From Thioploca ingrica (GTDB lineage: Bacteria > Pseudomonadota > Gammaproteobacteria > Beggiatoales > Beggiatoaceae), in assembly GCA_000828835.1 (NCBI GenBank), contig AP014633.1, forward strand, positions 3,038,001 to 3,102,000: a DNA stretch of 64,000 nt, in the 5' to 3' direction. The first letter of the stretch is position 1; the number at the start of each line of letters is the position of its first letter. The notes beneath the pieces were generated by a model that did not search any database, was not told the DNA's origin, and was given only the letters and a program-made list of their open reading frames with translations. The position numbers were made by a program, and so were the translations under genes. This document shows positions 21,866 to 32,794 of this stretch, one piece after another.

Positions 21866-23266
21866 ATGAGGTCAAGTAAAACATTGGACCATGTTATCTC
21901 CCATCCATTCTCAAGTATTCGTCCCCAAGAATATACTGTCGTTATGGGAATGGGCAAAACCGGAACCGCCTGTGCTCAGTTCTTAACCCGAAAAAAAGTC
22001 AAGGTGGTGGTGATGGATAACCGAGTTAAGCCACCGGGATTAAGTACACTTCAGCAAAACTTACCACAAGTGAGTTGTTTAACCGGTCGCTTTGATGCTG
22101 AACAATTAGCTCAGGCAACCGAGATTATTATTAGTCCGGGAATTTCTCAGCGAGAATCAGCATTAGCATTGGCTCAAGCAAGCGGTGTTCCTATTATCAG
22201 TGAAATTGAATTATTTGCTCGTTATATGAATGCCCCGGTAGTGGCTATCACCGGATCGAATGGGAAAAGCACGGTAACCACTTTAGTCGGCGAAATGGCT
22301 AAACAAGCGGGTTGGCAAGTGCAAGTTGGTGGTAATTTGGGTACGCCAGCTATTGAGCTATTGAGTGATCCGGCGCCAGATTTATATGTATTAGAACTAT
22401 CCAGCTTTCAATTAGAAACGACTTATTCTCTCAACCCGAAAGCCGCTGTGGTTTTGAACATTAGTGAAGATCATATGGATCGTTATCAACAGCTTGAGGA
22501 ATATATTTTTGCTAAACAACGCATTTATCGTGGTGATGGCGTTGTGGTTATCAATGCCGATGATCCTCGAGTAGTTGCTTTGTTACCACCTAATCGCCGC
22601 TCGCTGAGCTTTAGTTTACAGGCTCAGCAGGGAGATTTTAGAGTGGCTCAACACGAGGGTGAATTATACCTGGTTCGGGTTCAAGAAACGGTGATTACTC
22701 CGTTATTACCCACTAAAGCGGTAAAATTGCCCGGCAGTATGATGCGGGCTAATATTTTAGCTGCTTTGGCATTAGGGGAAGCCGTTGGGTTACCGCTGTT
22801 GCCTAGGTTAGAAGCTATCCAATCTTTTGCGGGATTACCACATCGTTGTGTTTGGGTGGCTAATAAACAAGGAATTGATTGGTATAATGATTCTAAAGGA
22901 ACTAATGTTGGTGCGACGATTGCTGCCATTCAGAATTTAGATAAACCCGAACACGTGATACTTATTGCCGGTGGTGAGGGTAAGGGCGCTGATTTTACTC
23001 CTTTAGCTGCGGCTGTGAGTCAACATTGTCGAGCTTGTGTCTTGATTGGGCGAGATGCACCGCTGATTGCTGCCGTAATCGGGAAAAGCGTTCCAGTGTA
23101 TCATGCTCAAAGTATGATAGCAGCAGTCATTCAAGCCGCTACCCTAGCCAGTCCTGGTGATGCGGTATTATTATCGCCAGCGTGCGCCAGTTTTGATATG
23201 TTTAACAACTATGAACATCGTGGACAAGTGTTTGAAACAGCAGTACACCAATTGGCAGATGATTGA
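21866..23266 (+). CDS. murD: UDP-N-acetylmuramoyl-L-alanine--D-glutamate ligase
   Basis: 466 residues. It adds D-Glu to UDP-MurNAc-L-Ala in the cytoplasm, the second Mur ligase step. The N-terminal nucleotide-fold motif MGMGKTGTACA, the ATP loop TGSNGKST (~residue 132), the central NISEDHMDRY and the C-terminal NDSKGTNVGATIAA are all standard for MurD. The first ~25 residues precede the usual family start, and the ribosome binding site is weak. It is the first gene of the local dcw run; mraY, murF and the earlier genes are not upstream, where a moxR unit lies instead. The next expected gene, ftsW, is only a remnant. Confidence 0.95.
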   Translation: MRSSKTLDHVISHPFSSIRPQEYTVVMGMGKTGTACAQFLTRKKVKVVVMDNRVKPPGLSTLQQNLPQVSCLTGRFDAEQLAQATEIIISPGISQRESALALAQASGVPIISEIELFARYMNAPVVAITGSNGKSTVTTLVGEMAKQAGWQVQVGGNLGTPAIELLSDPAPDLYVLELSSFQLETTYSLNPKAAVVLNISEDHMDRYQQLEEYIFAKQRIYRGDGVVVINADDPRVVALLPPNRRSLSFSLQAQQGDFRVAQHEGELYLVRVQETVITPLLPTKAVKLPGSMMRANILAALALGEAVGLPLLPRLEAIQSFAGLPHRCVWVANKQGIDWYNDSKGTNVGATIAAIQNLDKPEHVILIAGGEGKGADFTPLAAAVSQHCRACVLIGRDAPLIAAVIGKSVPVYHAQSMIAAVIQAATLASPGDAVLLSPACASFDMFNNYEHRGQVFETAVHQLADD

Positions 23267-23387
23267 TTTACTCAGGTTACGCACAGTTGCCATACCCCCA
23301 TTAGCTTTGATGAGTTGTGGTGGTCCCAATTTACGGATGACGTGCTGGATGTTGGCATTGTTGTTGCGCGTCGATTATGAAAATTAA
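23267..23387 (+). pseudogene. ftsW: ftsW remnant (C-terminal fragment)
   Basis: Directly after the murD stop, an open stretch of 39 codons without a start reads RTVAIPPLALMSCGGPNL, then RMTCWMLALLLRVDYEN and a stop. This matches the end of FtsW (PTKGLTLPLxSYGGSSL...LLLRIDYE), the septal peptidoglycan polymerase that belongs exactly here between murD and murG. The canonical SYGGSS loop is altered to SCGGPN. All the upstream ~340 codons are missing, so this is deletion scar, not a gene. Confidence 0.8.
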
Positions 23388-23415: not shown

Positions 23416-24516
23416 ATGACACAATCAGTCCTTCCAACTCGCTCATCATCACAGCCCATACTCCTGATGGCGGGTGGTACCGGTGGACATGTTTTTCCGG
23501 CGCTTGCGATTGCTCAGGCTTTACAAGCACAAGGCATTAAAGTATCTTGGTTAGGAACGCGCCGGGGTTTAGAAGCACGGGTGGTACCTAAAGCGGGTAT
23601 TGATATAAAGTACGTTAATATCAGTGGATTACGTGGAAAGAATCGCCTGGACTTATTGGTAGCACCCATTAAAATCATGGTAGCGATTTGGCAAACAATA
23701 CAAATTTTACGTACTTTACGCCCGGCTGCGGTGGTGGGAATGGGTGGTTTTGTCACTGGTCCAGGTGGAGTTGCCGCTTGGCTGTTAGGTATTCCATTAT
23801 TAATCCATGAGCAAAATGCCATTGCCGGCTTAACCAATAGTTGGTTAGCTTACCTTGCTGGTCAAATTATGGAAGCTTTTCCTAACACTTTTCCGCCGGA
23901 TTACTATGCCATACACACGGGCAATCCGCTTCGTGCTGAAATTATGGCTCTAACCTTATCTGCGCCTCGAAGTGGGCACAATCCTTTTAGGATATTAGTG
24001 GTAGGAGGTAGTTTAGGGGCGAAAGCGCTAAATGAAACGGTACCAATCGCTTTACAACAAGTGGTTGGGCAAATAACGGTTTGGCATCAGACCGGCGAAA
24101 CTCATGTTGCTGCAATGCAAAATGCGTATGCGCAAGCTTCTTTCCCAGCACGGATCGAGGCTTTTATTGAAGATATGGCAGCGGCTTATGCGTGGGCTGA
24201 TATTGTCATTTGCCGCGCAGGTGCTTTGACTATTAGTGAATTAGCTCAAGCTGGCGTTGCGAGTATATTAATACCTTACCCTTATGCGGTTGATGACCAT
24301 CAGACTTATAATGCGCAATTTTTAGCCATCCAAGGTGCTGCTATTTTATTACCACAAACTCAATTAACTGTAGATAAATTAGCCAGTTTGATTACATCAC
24401 TGTATCATGATTCCACCCGGTTACAATTAATGTCAAGCGCAGCACGAAATTGTGCCATGCCAATGGCTTTGCAACAAATTGTTAACTTAATCATAAAAAA
24501 CGCTTATTCGGTTTAA
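23416..24516 (+). CDS. murG: UDP-GlcNAc--MurNAc-pentapeptide-lipid GlcNAc transferase
   Basis: 366 residues. It converts lipid I to lipid II on the inner face of the membrane. The N-terminal MAGGTGGHVFPALAIA loop, HEQNAIAGLTN near residue 133, VVGGSLGAKALN (~195) and ICRAGALTISELA with an acidic/GlcNAc-binding loop (~270) are all MurG hallmarks. AGGAAG lies ~10 bases before the ATG. It follows the ftsW remnant by 28 bases. Codon use is like its neighbours. Confidence 0.95.
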   Translation: MTQSVLPTRSSSQPILLMAGGTGGHVFPALAIAQALQAQGIKVSWLGTRRGLEARVVPKAGIDIKYVNISGLRGKNRLDLLVAPIKIMVAIWQTIQILRTLRPAAVVGMGGFVTGPGGVAAWLLGIPLLIHEQNAIAGLTNSWLAYLAGQIMEAFPNTFPPDYYAIHTGNPLRAEIMALTLSAPRSGHNPFRILVVGGSLGAKALNETVPIALQQVVGQITVWHQTGETHVAAMQNAYAQASFPARIEAFIEDMAAAYAWADIVICRAGALTISELAQAGVASILIPYPYAVDDHQTYNAQFLAIQGAAILLPQTQLTVDKLASLITSLYHDSTRLQLMSSAARNCAMPMALQQIVNLIIKNAYSV

Positions 24517-24517
24517 C

Positions 24518-24698
24518 CCGTTATCAGTGAACAGTTATCAATGAATCATTTAGATAGGGAAGGATTTGGGAAAATTGGCTTGATAAGGAGAGGTGGGGAA
24601 GAGGTCAAGAGAATTCGGTTAAAAATTTATCTCCTCACAACTCATTGAATATAAGTCGCTATAATAACTAACAACGGCTAACTGTTCACTGATAACGG
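24518..24698. repeat. 18-bp inverted repeat between murG and murC
   Basis: CCGTTATCAGTGAACAGT (24518-24535) is the exact reverse complement of 24681-24698. About 145 bases without a gene lie between. Extra GATAACTG units follow just before the murC start and replace any recognisable ribosome binding site. Confidence 0.75.
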
Positions 24699-24722
24699 CT
24701 AACGGACAACTGATAACTGAAA

Positions 24723-26174
24723 ATGAACATCATCGAACACAATAAAACCCAGCTACCTAAACGTGGGCGACGGATTCACTTCGTCGGGATAGGCGGTGCC
24801 GGCATGGGCGGTATTGCTGAGGTCATGCACCGGATTGGTTATGCAGTCTCTGGCTCCGATTTGCACAAGAATCCGATGACCCGTCGATTAGTTGATCTAG
24901 GTATTAAAATTCAAATTGGACACACTGCCGAACAAATTCATGGTTGTGATGTCGTTGTCATTTCGAGCGCTGTTACTGCAGATAATCCGGAAGTACAGGC
25001 AGCACGTGCGCGACGAATTCCCATCATTCCACGCGCGGAGATGCTGGGGGAATTAATGCGATTTCGTCAAGGCATTGCGATTGCCGGAACGCATGGTAAA
25101 ACTACTACCACCAGCTTAATTACGAGTCTGTTAGCCGAAGGTGGACTGGATCCGACTTTTGTTATCGGTGGTCGTTTAAATAGCGTGGGTACTCATGCCA
25201 GTTTAGGTTCGGGAAATTATCTGGTTGCGGAAGCCGATGAAAGTGATGCTTCCTTTTTATACTTAAAAGCGGTCATGGCGGTTGTCACTAACATTGATGC
25301 CGATCATATGAGTACTTATCACCACGATTTTAACCAATTACGTCAAGCCTTTCTTGATTTTCTACAACAACTGCCGTTTTATGGGTTAGCGGTTTTATGT
25401 ATCGATGATCCGGTGATAGCCGAGTTATTACCGCAGTTAACTAAACCGATGTTAACTTATGGTCTTTCTGCTCAAGCCGATATTCGTGCCATTGATATTA
25501 GACAAACTCAGAATCAAACCCGTTTTACCGTATTGCGAGATCAAGTCCCCTGCTTAGAAATCCAACTTAATTTACCGGGTAAACACAATGTTCGTAATGC
25601 CCTCGCTGCGATTGCCATTGCCCAAGAAGTTGGCGTGTCAAATGCGGCGATTACTCATGCTTTACAAACTTTTGGTGGCATTGATCGCCGCTTTCAAATG
25701 CAAAGTATTCTCACTCGTCAGGGTGAAATTTTGTTGATTGATGACTATGGACATCATCCACGGGAAATGGCCGCCGTTTTTCAAGCCATTCGTGAAGGTT
25801 GGCCTAATCGACGTTTAGTGGTGGTATTTCAACCACATCGTTACACGCGCACCCAGGATTTATTTGCTGAATTTGTTGAAGTACTAGCGACGGTGGATCA
25901 GTTATTCTTACTGGAAGTTTATGCGGCTGGTGAATCGATTATTACTAGTGCGACTGGAGAAGCTTTATCCCAAGCGATTGCGGCTCAGAGTCGAATTAAA
26001 CCGGTATTTGTACCACATCCGGAACAATTACCTCAGTTATTACTTCCTTTATTGCAAGACCAAGACATTTTATTAACACTCGGTGCTGGCAATATTGGTG
26101 TTATTGCTGCCCAGTTACCCAATGCTTTAACCAGTGGAGAACGCCATGAATCCGCTCAATTCTCAGCCCATTAA
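24723..26174 (+). CDS. murC: UDP-N-acetylmuramate--L-alanine ligase
   Basis: 483 residues. It is the first Mur ligase and adds L-Ala to UDP-MurNAc. The N-terminal domain has HFVGIGGAGMGGIAE, the ATP loop is AGTHGKTTTTSL (~residue 118), followed by AEADESDASFL and the C-terminal IDDYGHHPREM and FQPHRYTRTQDLF. Length is normal. The last 29 bases overlap murB. No Shine-Dalgarno sequence is obvious; the region upstream is filled by repeat units. Confidence 0.95.
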   Translation: MNIIEHNKTQLPKRGRRIHFVGIGGAGMGGIAEVMHRIGYAVSGSDLHKNPMTRRLVDLGIKIQIGHTAEQIHGCDVVVISSAVTADNPEVQAARARRIPIIPRAEMLGELMRFRQGIAIAGTHGKTTTTSLITSLLAEGGLDPTFVIGGRLNSVGTHASLGSGNYLVAEADESDASFLYLKAVMAVVTNIDADHMSTYHHDFNQLRQAFLDFLQQLPFYGLAVLCIDDPVIAELLPQLTKPMLTYGLSAQADIRAIDIRQTQNQTRFTVLRDQVPCLEIQLNLPGKHNVRNALAAIAIAQEVGVSNAAITHALQTFGGIDRRFQMQSILTRQGEILLIDDYGHHPREMAAVFQAIREGWPNRRLVVVFQPHRYTRTQDLFAEFVEVLATVDQLFLLEVYAAGESIITSATGEALSQAIAAQSRIKPVFVPHPEQLPQLLLPLLQDQDILLTLGAGNIGVIAAQLPNALTSGERHESAQFSAH

Positions 26175-27090
26175 CCAACCGTTCTCAACTCAAGCAGTCC
26201 CTTTTAATCTACGGGAATTACGGGGCACCTTACGTCACCAAGAACCGATGCATGCCCATACCACTTGGCGAGTCGGAGGACCCGCACAATGGTTTTATGA
26301 ACCGGCTGATCTCAGTGATCTGATTCAATTGTTAACCGGTATTCCCCCAGATATCCCGGTTTTTTGGTTAGGCTTAGGCAGTAACTTATTGGTGCGAGAT
26401 GGGGGCATACCGGGTTTAGTAATCCTCACCGCGGGTTGCTTAAATGAGTTAAAATTAGTGGATACTCAACAACTCTATGTCCAAGCGGGTGTCAGTTGTG
26501 CTAAAGTGGCTCGGTTTGCTGCTCAAGCGGGACTAACTGGCACAGAATTTTTAGCGGGCATACCTGGCACCTTGGGTGGAGCCTTGGCGATGAATGCGAG
26601 TGCTTGGGGTGGTGAAACGTGGTCATTGGTACAGAGTGTAGAAACTATCAACCGGCGTGGACAACTACATTATCGTACTGCTACGGATTATGAAATTGGT
26701 TATCGCCAAGTGATTGGTCCCCAAGAAGAATGGTTTATATCGGCTACCTTACAATTGCAACCGAATCCCATCGCCGCGAATAAGGCCAAGATTCGCTGGT
26801 TACTGGAACAACGTCATGACAAACAACCGATTGGCTTACCCAGTGGGGGTTCGGTATTTCGTAACCCACCCGGGCATTATGCGGGTCAGCTCATAGAACA
26901 AGCGGGTTGGAAAGGGCGAGGTGTCGGTGGTGCAACCGTTGCAGAAAAACACGCGAATTTTATTATCAATAGTCATCATGCCACTGCGGCTGATATTGAG
27001 AATTTAATAACCCAAATAGCGAATTCGGTGGAACAAAACTTTGGTATTCATTTAATACCAGAAGTGCATATTATTGGAATTTATTGTTGA
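26146..27090 (+). CDS. murB: UDP-N-acetylenolpyruvoylglucosamine reductase
   Basis: 314 residues from the ATG at 26146, chosen because GGAGA lies 5 bases upstream; an in-frame GTG at 26134 would add four residues. MurB is an FAD enzyme that reduces the enolpyruvyl group with NADPH to give UDP-MurNAc. Motifs: TTWRVGGPA (~40), GLGSNLLVRDGG, EFLAGIPGTLGGALAMNAS, and PSGGSVFRNP with the catalytic Ser. The organisation is that of the short type II MurB. The start lies inside murC, implying translational coupling. Confidence 0.94.
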   Translation: MNPLNSQPINQPFSTQAVPFNLRELRGTLRHQEPMHAHTTWRVGGPAQWFYEPADLSDLIQLLTGIPPDIPVFWLGLGSNLLVRDGGIPGLVILTAGCLNELKLVDTQQLYVQAGVSCAKVARFAAQAGLTGTEFLAGIPGTLGGALAMNASAWGGETWSLVQSVETINRRGQLHYRTATDYEIGYRQVIGPQEEWFISATLQLQPNPIAANKAKIRWLLEQRHDKQPIGLPSGGSVFRNPPGHYAGQLIEQAGWKGRGVGGATVAEKHANFIINSHHATAADIENLITQIANSVEQNFGIHLIPEVHIIGIYC

Positions 27091-27139: not shown

Positions 27140-28054
27140 ATGACAACAGACTTTGGCAAAGTAGCTGTATTAATGGGAGGAAATTCGGCGGAACGAGAAA
27201 TCTCCCTCAAAAGTGGACGCGCTGTTCTAGCCGCTTTGTTAAGACAGGGCGTTGATGCCGTAGCGATAGACACTGCCAACGAATGGCTGAGTCAATTGAT
27301 CACCCACCAGTTTGCTCGAGTTTTTATCGCGTTGCATGGGCGTGGTGGTGAAGATGGTGTTATTCAAGGGTTATTGGATAGCATTGGTTTACCCTATACC
27401 GGGAGTGGTGTTTTAGGTGCGGCGTTAGCGATGGATAAATATCGCACTAAACTGATTTGGCAAGGCAGCGGATTACCTACCCCACCAAGTCAGCTATTAA
27501 CCCATAAACTTGATTTAAATCAAATCGTTGAAAAATTAGGTTTGCCCCTGATGGTTAAACCGGTGTTAGAAGGTTCCAGTGTGGGAATGAGTAAAGTTAA
27601 CCGACGAGAAGAATTAGAATCCGCTTGGGAGACCGCCGCTCAATATCATTGTGATGTTCTGGTAGAGCGTTATATCACTGGCCCAGAATATACGGCATCC
27701 ATTCTCAATGACGTGGTATTGCCTTTAATTCGCTTGGAAACGCCACGGGATTTTTATGACTTCGCCGCTAAATATCATGATCCGCATACCACTTATATTT
27801 GTCCTTGTGGCTTACCACCAGATCAAGAACAAAGTTTACAACAACTGGCTAAGCAAGCTTTTCTCGCTATCAATGCCAGTGGTTGGGGTCGAGTTGATTT
27901 CATTTGTGATCAGACCGGTCAGCCTTGGCTATTGGAAGTCAATACGGTACCCGGGATGACCGATCACAGTCTGGTGCCAATGGCTGCCAAAACCGCCGGG
28001 ATTACCTTTGATGAACTGGTATTACGTATTCTAGCAACCGCATGGACTCGATAA
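27140..28054 (+). CDS. ddl: D-alanine--D-alanine ligase
   Basis: 304 residues, ATP-grasp fold. It makes the D-Ala-D-Ala dipeptide used by MurF. Motifs: VLMGGNSAEREISLKSG near the start, ALHGRGGEDGVIQG (~70), the ATP-grasp core KPVLEGSSVGMSKV (~140), and the C-terminal LLEVNTVPGMTDHSL. The length and the position between murB and ftsQ point to DdlB. Its stop overlaps the ftsQ start region by 13 bases. Confidence 0.95.
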   Translation: MTTDFGKVAVLMGGNSAEREISLKSGRAVLAALLRQGVDAVAIDTANEWLSQLITHQFARVFIALHGRGGEDGVIQGLLDSIGLPYTGSGVLGAALAMDKYRTKLIWQGSGLPTPPSQLLTHKLDLNQIVEKLGLPLMVKPVLEGSSVGMSKVNRREELESAWETAAQYHCDVLVERYITGPEYTASILNDVVLPLIRLETPRDFYDFAAKYHDPHTTYICPCGLPPDQEQSLQQLAKQAFLAINASGWGRVDFICDQTGQPWLLEVNTVPGMTDHSLVPMAAKTAGITFDELVLRILATAWTR

Positions 28055-28962
28055 CCGTTTCCCCACGAATGAAGAGCAAAAGGCAGACATATCGGTCTGC
28101 CCCTACCTCTCACCTGAAACGTTTACTGGGGTGGGAACGTTTGTCAACGACAACTTTAACGCCTTTATTTTGGGTTAAAAATATATTGATTATTGGTTTA
28201 AGCCTCAGCTTAACCGGTACCTTGTTACTTTGGCTACTTGAACCACATACGTTGCCGCTGACTAAAGTTCAAATTGAAGGTACGCTGATTAATATTGATC
28301 CGCAAGATTTACAAGCGGTCGTTTCTCGGGTAACTATGGGTGGGTTATTGAGTCTCGATGTGGCAGCGGTACGGCGAGTTTTGTTATCCATCCCGTGGAT
28401 ACAAGACGTTCGTATTTATCGACGTTGGCCCGATACCTTACTTATCCAAATTCAGGAACGAGAGGCGGTTGCTTATTGGCATGATAAAACCACTGTAGAC
28501 TCCAAAGGACATTTAATTGTGGACCCCAAAGGACATTTATTTGTGGTACCTCCTCGTTGGAATAAAAAGGGGGAAATCAGAAATAAAGAGGGATCTTATT
28601 TACCCCGTTTTAAGGGGCCATCGGGTAGTGCGAAACTGATTTTAGAACGTTACTACCCGCTAAAAAAAATTATTCAATTAGCGGGATTGAAAATAAAAGA
28701 ATTCGGTTGTGATAGCCGTCAAGCTTGGTATATGGTATTAAACCAAGGATTTCACTTACAATTAGGACGTGGCAACAGTGAACAGCGGGTACAACGTTTT
28801 CTTCAAGTTTATCAGCGTATCATAACCCCATTTGCTTCCCTTTGTGCCAAAGCGGAAACCCGCTCTCCCCTTTGTCAAAAACCCAGTGGAAATAACCTAA
28901 TTACGCAGATTGATTTGCGTTATACCAATGGCATTGCCGTGCGAAAACCGTTGGCAGAGTGA
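28042..28962 (+). CDS. ftsQ: Cell division protein FtsQ
   Basis: 306 residues. This single-pass divisome protein has one membrane helix (~48-72), a POTRA domain (LTKVQIEGTLINIDPQDLQ...), then the IPWIQDVRIYRRWPDTLLIQIQEREAVAYW motif region (27 to 30 residues apart in the family). FtsQ links FtsB/FtsL to the division site. Two oddities: the short cytoplasmic tail is encoded by a GGCAGAC/GTCTGCC palindrome (28082-28101), and the beta domain holds a 24-base in-frame tandem duplication (28498-28545). It is about 25-30 residues longer than E. coli FtsQ. An ATG at 28069 is a possible alternative start. Confidence 0.9.
   Translation: MDSITVSPRMKSKRQTYRSAPTSHLKRLLGWERLSTTTLTPLFWVKNILIIGLSLSLTGTLLLWLLEPHTLPLTKVQIEGTLINIDPQDLQAVVSRVTMGGLLSLDVAAVRRVLLSIPWIQDVRIYRRWPDTLLIQIQEREAVAYWHDKTTVDSKGHLIVDPKGHLFVVPPRWNKKGEIRNKEGSYLPRFKGPSGSAKLILERYYPLKKIIQLAGLKIKEFGCDSRQAWYMVLNQGFHLQLGRGNSEQRVQRFLQVYQRIITPFASLCAKAETRSPLCQKPSGNNLITQIDLRYTNGIAVRKPLAE
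28082..28101. repeat. Palindrome inside ftsQ coding sequence
   Basis: GGCAGAC-ATATCG-GTCTGCC forms a 7-bp hairpin. It encodes part of the cytoplasmic tail of FtsQ and resembles dispersed palindromes elsewhere in bacterial genomes that can be read through in frame. Confidence 0.5.
28498..28545. repeat. 24-bp in-frame tandem duplication in ftsQ
   Basis: Two adjacent units encode VDSKGHLI-V and VDPKGHLF-V style octapeptides with three base differences. Family members have one such D.xGxxF/L turn, so one unit is extra. Confidence 0.8.
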
Positions 28963-28970
28963 GGAATAAC

Positions 28971-30206
28971 ATGCCAAGAGAAAAAAATTTGATTGTTGGA
29001 CTGGATATTGGCACCTCGAAAGTGGTTGCTATTGTTGGTGAAGTGACTCCGGAAGGAGATGAAGTTGAAATTATTGGCATTGGTCAACATCCTTCCCGTG
29101 GTCTTAAGAAGGGCGTGGTTGTCAATATTGAATCCACTACGCATTCGATCCAGCGGGCGGTAGAAGAAGCGGAATTAATGTCCGGTTGTGAAATTCACTC
29201 GGTTTATACTGGCATTGCCGGTAGTCATATTCGGAGTATGAATTCACATGGCATAGTCGCTATTCGTGATAAAGAAGTGACTCAAGATGATATTGATCGT
29301 GTCATTGATGCAGCACGTGCTGTGGCTATCCCCGCCGATCGAAAAATCGTGCATATTTTACCACAGGAATTTATCATTGATAATCAAGAAGGTATTCGTG
29401 AACCCATTGGTATGTCTGGCGTTCGCTTGGAAGCGAAAGTTCATTTGGTGACCAGTGCCGCGAGTGCCGCGCAAAACATTGTTAAATGTATCCGCATCTG
29501 TGGATTGGAAGTGGATGATCTCATTTTAGAGCAACTCGCTTCCAGTGAATCCGTCTTGACCGAAGATGAGAAAGATCTCGGGGTTTGTCTAGTCGATGTG
29601 GGGGGTGGAACCACCGACATTGCCGTATTTACCGAGGGAGCGGTACGTTACACGGCGGTTATACCGATTGCCGGTGATCAAGTGACTAATGATATTGCGG
29701 TGGCGATGCGAACCCCAACCCAGTATGCAGAAGAAATTAAAATCAAGTATGCTTGTGCATTAGCACAATTGACCAATGCAGACGAAATGATTGAAGTACC
29801 GAGTGTGGGCGCTCGGCCACCGCGTTACTTAGCGCGACAAACTTTAGCGGATGTCGTGGAACCACGCTATGAAGAATTATTAACTTTAGTGCAAGCCGAA
29901 TTGCGACGGAGTGGTTATGAGGATTTAATTGCCGCTGGGATTGTACTCACTGGCGGTAGCGCTAAAATGGATGGTGTCATCGAATTGGCAGAAGAAGTCT
30001 TTCACATGCCAGTACGGGTTGGTTATCCTAAATATGTGAGTGGCTTAATTGATGTCGTTCGTAATCCAATTCATGCCACCGGGGTGGGTTTATTATTATT
30101 TGGTCATAAACATCGTCATGAACGTATTTCCGATATTAATCATTCTAGTAGAATCGTCAGAGGGGTATTGGGTCGGATGAAAAACTGGTTTCAAGGTAAC
30201 TTTTGA
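28971..30206 (+). CDS. ftsA: Cell division protein FtsA
   Basis: 411 residues from the ATG at 28971, preceded by GAGG about 7 bases upstream; a GTG at 28959 inside ftsQ would add four residues. It is an actin-like ATPase that tethers FtsZ to the membrane. Motifs: NLIVGLDIGTSKV at the start, DVGGGTTDIAVF (~210), GIVLTGGSAKMDG (~325), and a C-terminal amphipathic helix (RMKNWFQGNF) that binds membrane. Length is normal. It overlaps ftsQ slightly at the level of the upstream GTG only. Confidence 0.96.
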   Translation: MPREKNLIVGLDIGTSKVVAIVGEVTPEGDEVEIIGIGQHPSRGLKKGVVVNIESTTHSIQRAVEEAELMSGCEIHSVYTGIAGSHIRSMNSHGIVAIRDKEVTQDDIDRVIDAARAVAIPADRKIVHILPQEFIIDNQEGIREPIGMSGVRLEAKVHLVTSAASAAQNIVKCIRICGLEVDDLILEQLASSESVLTEDEKDLGVCLVDVGGGTTDIAVFTEGAVRYTAVIPIAGDQVTNDIAVAMRTPTQYAEEIKIKYACALAQLTNADEMIEVPSVGARPPRYLARQTLADVVEPRYEELLTLVQAELRRSGYEDLIAAGIVLTGGSAKMDGVIELAEEVFHMPVRVGYPKYVSGLIDVVRNPIHATGVGLLLFGHKHRHERISDINHSSRIVRGVLGRMKNWFQGNF

Positions 30207-30328: not shown

Positions 30329-31498
30329 ATGCCGTTTGAATTAATGGATACTTACAGCCAAAATGCTGTTATTAAAGTCATTGGTGTCGGTGGTGGTGGT
30401 GGCAATGCCGTTGAGCATATGCTCCAAGGTAACATCGAGGGTGTTGAATTCATCTGTGCCAACACCGACGCGCAAGCACTGAAAAATTCTTCCGCTCGGA
30501 CCATTTTACAACTGGGTACTGATGTGACCAAAGGTCTTGGTGCTGGTGCGAATCCCGAGATTGGACAACAAGCCGCATTAGAGGATCGGGAACGAATTCT
30601 GGCGGTTTTAGAGGGGACAGACATGGTATTTATTACCGCCGGTATGGGTGGGGGTACCGGTACGGGTGCAGCACCCATCGTCGCGCAAGTTGCCAAGGAA
30701 TTAGGCATTTTAACCGTCGCGGTAGTGACTCGGCCATTTCCATTTGAAGGCAAAAAACGCGCGCTGATCGCCGAAGAAGGGATTAAAGAATTAAGCCAAA
30801 ATGTGGATTCTTTGATTATTATTCCTAATGAGAAACTCCTGACGGTCTTAGGTAAAGATACGACCTTATTAGATGCCTTTAAAGCCGCTAACAACGTCCT
30901 CTATGGTGCGGTGCAGGGTATCTCGGAATTAATTACTCGTCCTGGCTTAATTAACGTCGACTTTGCCGACGTGACGACCGTGATGCAAGAAATGGGTTTA
31001 GCTATGATGGGAGCCGGTCGTGCTAAAGGTGAAGGTCGTGCTCGTAAAGCCGGGATGGAAGCCATTTCCAGCCCGCTGTTGGAAGATATTGATCTATCAG
31101 GCGCTCGTGGCATATTAGTGAATATGACGGCTGGTCCCGATCTCAGCATCGGTGAATTTGAAGAAATGGGCGATGTCGTAGAAGAATTTGCTTCCGACAA
31201 TGCCACTGTGGTAGTGGGTACTGTGCTTGATCCCGAGATGAAAGAAGAACTTCGGGTTACCGTCATCGCCACCGGTGTCAATCATATTAATAAACAGCCA
31301 GAACGTCCTCAAGTCAAGATGGTACCTAAACCGACCGAGAAACCAAGTAAAATGAGCGATTATAGAGAGTTTGATAAACCAACGGTGACACGTCTTCAAC
31401 AGACGAATAGTGACAAAAACTCGGATCCACATAATCGGGAAACGCCTTCTGGAGATTATCTTGATATCCCGGCTTTTTTACGTCGGCAAGCTGATTAA
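30329..31498 (+). CDS. ftsZ: Cell division protein FtsZ
   Basis: 389 residues. This tubulin-like GTPase forms the Z ring. Motifs: [14 protein letters not shown] (~17), the tubulin signature [10 protein letters not shown] (~105), the T7 loop [11 protein letters not shown] (~207), and the conserved C-terminal peptide [12 protein letters not shown] that binds FtsA and ZipA. AGGAG lies 8-9 bases before the ATG. A 122-base gap separates it from ftsA and may contain its own promoter. Confidence 0.97.
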
Positions 31499-31879
31499 GT
31501 GAAAAATTATCTCATTTATACCGGAGAACTGGCATTCTAACTAAAAAATTATCTATTTTAGCAACTTGTTATGGGTATGATCCTCCGGCGATAAGCATAG
31601 ACTTTAACCGCTAGCTCATGAGAGTCGGTAGGAAAATATCACTTGGGTGTCATAAGCTAAAGCTAAAAAATTTTCCAGCGGCAGCTTAAAGTGTCTAGAA
31701 TTGCAAAAATATTCAATGAGTTAATTATGAAAATCGGTAGGTAATTATTAAGTGGTATGTAATTTGCGTAACTTTAAATAAGAGTAAATTAACTGCTTTG
31801 GAAAAGTATCTAAATTAAAGACAATGCCGAAATGATGGACTAACCAATGGCTAAAAGCGTAAGGGAGAGATACAAACTA
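31499..31879. other. Gene-free region between ftsZ and lpxC
   Basis: About 350-380 bases, AT-rich, with no credible gene. I see no strong terminator after ftsZ. Several AT-rich stretches near 31750-31800 could hold an lpxC promoter. The frame from an ATG at 31847 is open but does not belong to the conserved LpxC sequence. Confidence 0.4.
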
Positions 31880-32794
31880 ATGATGAAACAGCGCACCTTA
31901 AAGAATATCATTCGTGCCACCGGCGTTGGGTTACACACAGGTGAAAAAGTTTATTTAACCTTAAGGCCAGCACCAGCCAACACGGGAATTATTTTTAGAC
32001 GAGTTGATTTAGAGGTGCCGGTAGAAATCGCCGCGCGTACTGAAAATGTGGGTGATACCAAATTATCAACGACTTTAATTAAAGAAGCCGTACGCATTTC
32101 TACCATTGAACACTTACTGTCCGCATTGGCTGGTTTAGGGATAGACAATGCCTATATTGATCTCAGTGCCCCGGAAGTTCCTATTATGGATGGAAGTGCT
32201 GGCCCGTTTGTGTTTTTAATTCAATCGGCTGGGATTGAAGAGCAAAATGTACCTAAAAAGTATATTCGGATTAAACGACCGATACAGGTACAACAAGGGG
32301 ATAAATGGGCACGTTTTGAACCGTTTGATGGATTTAAAGTGAGTTTTCAAATTGACTTTAACCATCCGGTTTTTAAACGCCAACCCCAATCGGTGGAAAT
32401 TGATTTTTCTAAAACTTCTTTTGTTAAAGAAGTGAGCCGAGCACGAACTTTTGGATTTATGCAAGAAGTTGAATTACTTCGTGAAAATCAACTCGCCTTA
32501 GGAGGCAGTTTAGATAATGCGATAGTGATGGATGATTATCGCATTCTCAATGAAGATGGTCTACGTTATGAAGATGAATTTGTGAAACATAAAGTACTTG
32601 ATGCCATTGGCGATCTTTACTTATTAGGACATAGTTTGATAGGTGCCTTTAGTGGATATAAATCTGGACATGAACTTAACAATACTTTACTCCGTGCCTT
32701 ATTGGCCAATCAACCCGCTTGGGAAATGGTCAGTGATAATAATATTCGAAAAGTCTCTTCAATGAGCTATCTTCAACCTATTCCAGTATCTTAA
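31880..32794 (+). CDS. lpxC: UDP-3-O-acyl-N-acetylglucosamine deacetylase
   Basis: 304 residues from the ATG at 31880, which follows GGGAGAG by ~11 bases and opens with the family N-terminus MKQRTLKN; an ATG at 31847 would add 11 unconserved residues. LpxC is a zinc enzyme and the committed step of lipid A synthesis. Visible parts: [10 protein letters not shown] (~20), [18 protein letters not shown] with the first zinc His (~78), [11 protein letters not shown], and [22 protein letters not shown] carrying the second His and Asp. It ends the dcw cluster as in other gammaproteobacteria. Confidence 0.96.

Follow-up and report, generated by a model that had tools for sequence, protein, structure and literature searches.

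The stretch of DNA analysed here (the window; 64,000 nucleotides) covers positions 3038001-3102000 of the Thioploca ingrica genome, a single contig of 4.81 Mb with 100% completeness, and carries part of a dcw cluster in the same order as that of E. coli: murD, murG, murC, ddl, ftsQ, ftsA, ftsZ and lpxC (Table 1). As a preliminary description of this DNA had stated, the flanking genes from murD to lpxC are all complete open reading frames. FtsW and FtsI build the dividing wall in nearly all walled bacteria. In E. coli, ftsW sits between murD and murG, and in intact relatives of T. ingrica it lies directly upstream of murG; here the spacing between murD and murG is 149 bases. A 42-codon frame overlaps the murD stop (MIDLLRLRTVAIPPLALMSCGGPNLRMTCWMLALLLRVDYEN*, the asterisk marking a stop), and its last ~27 codons correspond to residues 361-388 of FtsW from G018, a close relative in which the protein is intact (LALMSCGGPNLRMTCWMLALLLRVDYE in the scar against LPLMSYGGSSLIVTCVMLALLLRVDYE in G018). 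The alignment score is 91, whereas none of 1000 dinucleotide shuffles did as well (the best reached 53), and a tblastn match at 23301-23384 covers 28 aa at 71%; the scar reads SCGG where the preliminary description had seen an altered SYGG loop. The ~350-residue SEDS domain that defines FtsW, with its catalytic Asp in HTDF, is gone, and what is left is significant similarity over the C-terminal codons at the native locus upstream of murG. The claim that ftsW is reduced to a C-terminal scar at this site therefore holds up: the frame is what remains of the 3' end of ftsW after its deletion, and no functional gene.

Table 1. Features of the window from murD to lpxC (positions within the window; dN/dS between the two Thioploca genomes)
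Feature	Position	Strand	Evidence
murD, complete, 466 aa, flanks the scar	21866..23266	+	TIGR01087, 441 bits, over cut-off; ORF
ftsW relic, 42-codon frame, last ~27 codons matching the FtsW C-terminus	23259..23387	+	Shuffles; tblastn; stops in second Thioploca
murG, complete, 366 aa	23416..24516	+	TIGR01133 over cut-off; synteny (directly 3' of ftsW in intact relatives)
murC, complete, 483 aa	24723..26174	+	53% to E. coli MurC
murB-like gene, complete, between murC and ddl	26134..27090	+	ORF; 85% to second Thioploca; name from position and sequence, without library scan
ddl, complete	27140..28054	+	52% to E. coli DdlB
ftsQ, complete, 306 aa	28042..28962	+	PF08478 and PF03799; dN/dS 0.26
ftsA, complete, strongly conserved	28959..30206	+	PF14450 and PF02491; dN/dS 0.009
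ftsZ, complete, with C-terminal tail	30329..31498	+	PF00091 and PF12327; dN/dS 0.03
lpxC, complete	31847..32794	+	62% to E. coli LpxC

The same scar is found in a second Thioploca, Thioploca sp. SL_4_0 (G001), whose genome is a separate metagenome assembly and whose MurG is 86% identical to that of T. ingrica. There it is interrupted by two stops (LALMSCGDPHL*MRC*ILALLLRVD), so the scar common to both genomes is non-coding and still decaying. A working small protein encoded by the 42-codon frame was also considered, and is ruled out by these stop codons at the same site.

The preliminary description had called the dcw set otherwise intact, which proved wrong because ftsI has been lost from its other half. 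The cluster is split over two genome locations, and the remaining genes lie at about 1430-1436 kb (locus L093) in the order rsmH, ftsL, then murE, murF and mraY. The gap between ftsL and murE, the normal site of ftsI, measures 306 bp; within it LRLLNTPPDNLS pairs in the right orientation with LRLLNIPPDNLT, the very end of a relative's FtsI, with 2/1000 shuffles as good, and just upstream a frame-shifted PLAFDAVVPVA resembles, by eye, the preceding APVFAKVMSGA. This putative C-terminal relic of ftsI is weaker evidence than that of ftsW, and none was found when it was looked for in the second Thioploca genome, which also lacks ftsI and keeps ftsL. No protein in the T. ingrica genome qualifies as FtsI (class B PBP3), as a search with PF00905 returned four proteins, namely PBP2, PBP1A, PBP1B and PBP1C. 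The sequence shows that both members of the SEDS-class B PBP pair for septal peptidoglycan, FtsW and FtsI, have had their genes deleted, with a clear relic of ftsW and a weaker one of ftsI left at the native sites.

It could be argued that ~1 kb of ftsW (and of ftsI) is simply absent from the assembly. Drafts do often miss genes: among 281 genomes of the class, each at least 95% complete, 22 have no FtsW over the cut-off. For this reason the weight falls on the scars, on the completeness of the single contig and on the sister genome. The other single-contig genomes of the class sample without an FtsW-level match are two of 0.3-0.4 Mb, and in T. ingrica two unlinked genes of one complex are hit. 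Furthermore, we reject an assembly gap at 23267 because the independently assembled second Thioploca has the same scar, decayed by stop codons. An assembly artefact is thus extremely improbable, and the loss of ftsW and ftsI in T. ingrica itself is almost certainly real.

With ftsW gone, the preliminary description had reasoned, the cell must have a second gene of this type elsewhere or use another polymerase. A whole-genome search with the PF01098 profile did return a SEDS gene of the RodA type, and no ftsW; no further SEDS besides RodA was found in the genome at E<=0.001. The sole SEDS protein scores 431 bits with the RodA model (NCBIfam TIGR02210, cut-off 336.7) and 302 with the FtsW model (cut-off 337.5), and its gene adjoins the PBP2 gene (mrdA) and a lytic-transglycosylase-like gene. 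The genome thus contains no second FtsW, its single SEDS being a RodA by these cut-offs as well as by its PBP2 neighbourhood, and another polymerase must serve. The candidates for the septal wall are PBP1A, PBP1B, PBP1C and RodA-PBP2; GT51 has three matches in the genome, the same proteins as PBP1A (which carries a PCB_OB domain), PBP1B (which carries a UB2H domain) and PBP1C.

Besides RodA, PBP2 and these three class A PBPs, T. ingrica keeps FtsZ, FtsA, FtsQ, FtsL and FtsB. The FtsQ, FtsL and FtsB frames are open in both Thioploca genomes, between which dN/dS is 0.23 for ftsL (values for ftsQ, ftsA and ftsZ in Table 1). Because FtsQ and FtsL are constrained, they appear to have kept a function in the absence of FtsWI, their usual partners, unless these were lost so recently that decay has yet to set in.

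The closest precedent is Clostridioides difficile. Septal wall synthesis had been regarded as dependent on FtsW and FtsI in all cases before the work on this species (PMC10693644), which lacks both in vegetative division and relies on a class A PBP (PBP1) to drive it (PMC10693644, PMC12539705). The FtsBLQ complex of E. coli binds PBP1b and holds its glycosyltransferase inhibited until FtsN or LpoB lifts the block (PMC6325244). We propose that in T. ingrica the Z ring and FtsA would still mark the septum, that a class A PBP, most likely the UB2H-bearing PBP1B, would polymerise the septal wall in place of the deleted FtsWI, and that RodA-PBP2 would keep making the side wall and may help at the septum. 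We give this explanation as a whole a probability of about 0.5. FtsBLQ would still act on PBP1B, which would explain the purifying selection on FtsQ and FtsL without FtsWI. It is because FtsBLQ of E. coli has PBP1b as a client, and because a class A PBP drives division in C. difficile, that we favour PBP1B under FtsQLB control at the septum over RodA-PBP2, a choice to which our analysis gives a little less than even odds.

Some observations count against this explanation. Class A PBPs are no more numerous in the family genomes without FtsW, and RodA-PBP2, the only SEDS-class B pair left, is intact and strongly constrained in T. ingrica (dN/dS between the two Thioploca genomes of 0.08 for rodA and 0.04 for mrdA, with half of each gene compared). 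Perhaps this pair does double duty, being recruited to the Z ring to make the septum as well; RodA retains its catalytic HTDF motif, and a RodA sequence is present in every relative without FtsW, albeit in two pieces in the sister Thioploca. However, the evolutionary rates of RodA and PBP2 are unchanged in the FtsW-less lineages, without the acceleration that would signal a takeover, the RodA-PBP2 pair of C. difficile stayed with elongation, and rodA and mrdA both read as frameshifted in the sister Thioploca. In that genome (loci L109 and L203) the PBP1A gene is frameshifted as well. Each of the three remains highly identical on either side of its break, and uninterrupted frames were read for PBP1B, PBP1C and about 20 further genes in the comparison. 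These frameshifts may stem from assembly error in a metagenome of low coverage; if real, they would favour PBP1B strongly. We consider double duty by RodA-PBP2 a real possibility, though one we tend to doubt. Another reading is that the septum contains little or no dedicated septal peptidoglycan, with cross-walls or rare division arising by a different route. Some relatives also lack FtsQ, FtsL, FtsB and, in two cases, FtsA, which would be in keeping with this; T. ingrica itself, however, keeps the Mur enzymes checked, FtsZ, FtsA and FtsQLB, with FtsA and FtsZ strongly constrained, making such a septum quite unlikely. A link between the loss of ftsW and an unusual division mode, raised in the preliminary description, is plausible.

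The preliminary description missed the loss of FtsI, and likewise the pattern across the family. Among 25 Beggiatoaceae genomes, FtsW is missing or decayed in eight: it is absent from T. ingrica (G000), the second Thioploca (G001), G003, G006, G009, G017 and G023, and in G012 it persists as a shrunken, open frame (L080:7162-8106, 314 aa) with many deletions and HINF in place of HTDF (catalytic Asp to Asn), which could be either a gene in decay or a protein retained without catalytic activity. FtsI is absent from G000, G001, G002, G003, G008, G009, G012, G017 and G023; single absences in G002, G006 and G008, which are drafts, may be gaps, and G003, G009, G017 and G023 were also read from drafts. 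FtsQ is absent from G003, G009, G012, G017 and G023, FtsL and FtsB from these and from G008 (the FtsL/FtsB count leaves out one weak DivIC-like match in G023, which falls short of the cut-off and lies in a frame of 331 aa), and FtsA from G012 and G017. Five of the eight genomes with lost or decayed FtsW are thus also without FtsQ, FtsL and FtsB, and FtsQLB control of the septal synthase cannot be a general rule because of these five cases. The gene order shows several of these gaps directly: the next gene after ddl is ftsA in G003, G009 and G023, but ftsZ in G012 and G017, and in G023 the distance from rsmH to murE is about 140 bases, with no ftsW or ftsI relics above shuffles in that genome.

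On a seven-gene tree, five changes are needed to account for the losses of FtsW, and six if G012 is included, which places them on at least five or six lineages; the close relative G018 retains the full set. Plain Fisher tests of joint absence, which ignore relatedness, give 5e-4 for FtsW-FtsI and 6e-6 for FtsL-FtsB; a tree-aware test of joint FtsW/FtsI loss did not reach significance, there being too few independent pairs. Tentatively, and with somewhat more doubt than confidence, we suggest that FtsQLB-FtsWI has been dismantled repeatedly and stepwise in Beggiatoaceae (FtsWI, then FtsQLB, then FtsA), leaving a Z ring without a dedicated septal SEDS-class B pair, and septal polymerisation to a class A PBP.

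Several further features of these genomes may be recorded. In G012, which has no FtsA, FtsZ (L080:1771-2910) is more diverged than in its relatives and its C-terminal tail is changed to DYLNIAALLNRQAN. G017 (7.6 Mb; L121, L064), without FtsW, FtsI, FtsQ, FtsL, FtsB and FtsA, has a second mrdA (PBP2) apart from the rod locus. In G002 (L128, L017) the only SEDS is FtsW, and an argininosuccinate-synthase-like gene stands beside PBP2 instead of RodA, in a fragmented draft where this is maybe a gap. At locus L201 of G009 (C2:45000-57000), ddl is followed directly by ftsA, with no ftsZ in the remaining 5 kb. Outside the family but in the same class, G028 (2.3 Mb, 97% complete) gave no matches to FtsQ, FtsL, FtsA or RsmH and has one SEDS beside PBP2; this is possibly another reduced divisome, or else a missing contig.

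Like C. difficile in vegetative division, T. ingrica has no FtsW/FtsI pair, retains class A PBPs (three, with a putative septal role) and RodA-PBP2, and still encodes FtsQ, FtsL and FtsB, which are dispensable in C. difficile. The two differ in that the dcw SEDS and class B PBP of C. difficile became the sporulation proteins SpoVE and SpoVD, whereas Thioploca deleted both outright; in addition, Thioploca grows as Gram-negative filaments, its family shows the loss repeatedly, and the polymerase that would stand in for FtsWI is a candidate. With the E. coli divisome Thioploca shares FtsQ, FtsL, FtsB, FtsA and FtsZ, but its ftsW and ftsI are deleted and its cluster is split between two locations. 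Chlamydia also has a reduced divisome, yet it is FtsZ that it lacks (PMC11975371), whereas Thioploca keeps FtsZ and FtsA and has lost FtsW and FtsI.

A complete Gram-negative genome with scars, together with relatives at several stages of loss, offers a natural series for divisome dependencies, and makes testable what FtsQLB does without its main clients and which synthase can replace FtsWI. It also has a bearing on how cells divide in the group to which the largest known bacteria belong. Candidatus Thiomargarita magnifica, of the same group of large sulfur bacteria as Thioploca, was reportedly missing core division genes in its 2022 description, and part of the division-gene loss in Thioploca and Beggiatoaceae may have been noticed before; the Beggiatoaceae genome papers examined make no mention of division genes.

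Two minor observations concern T. ingrica alone. Its genome contains two RNA polymerase beta-prime genes (G000:C1:369724-370707 and 3288471-3289454), as published for this species. In the window, inspection by eye shows two sequences in inverted arrangement, GTTATCAGTGAACAGTTA and TAACTGTTCACTGATAAC, close to the ends of the gap between murG and murC (24515-24722); this pair is perhaps related to the TAACTGA-type repeats described for Beggiatoaceae (PMC4679880).
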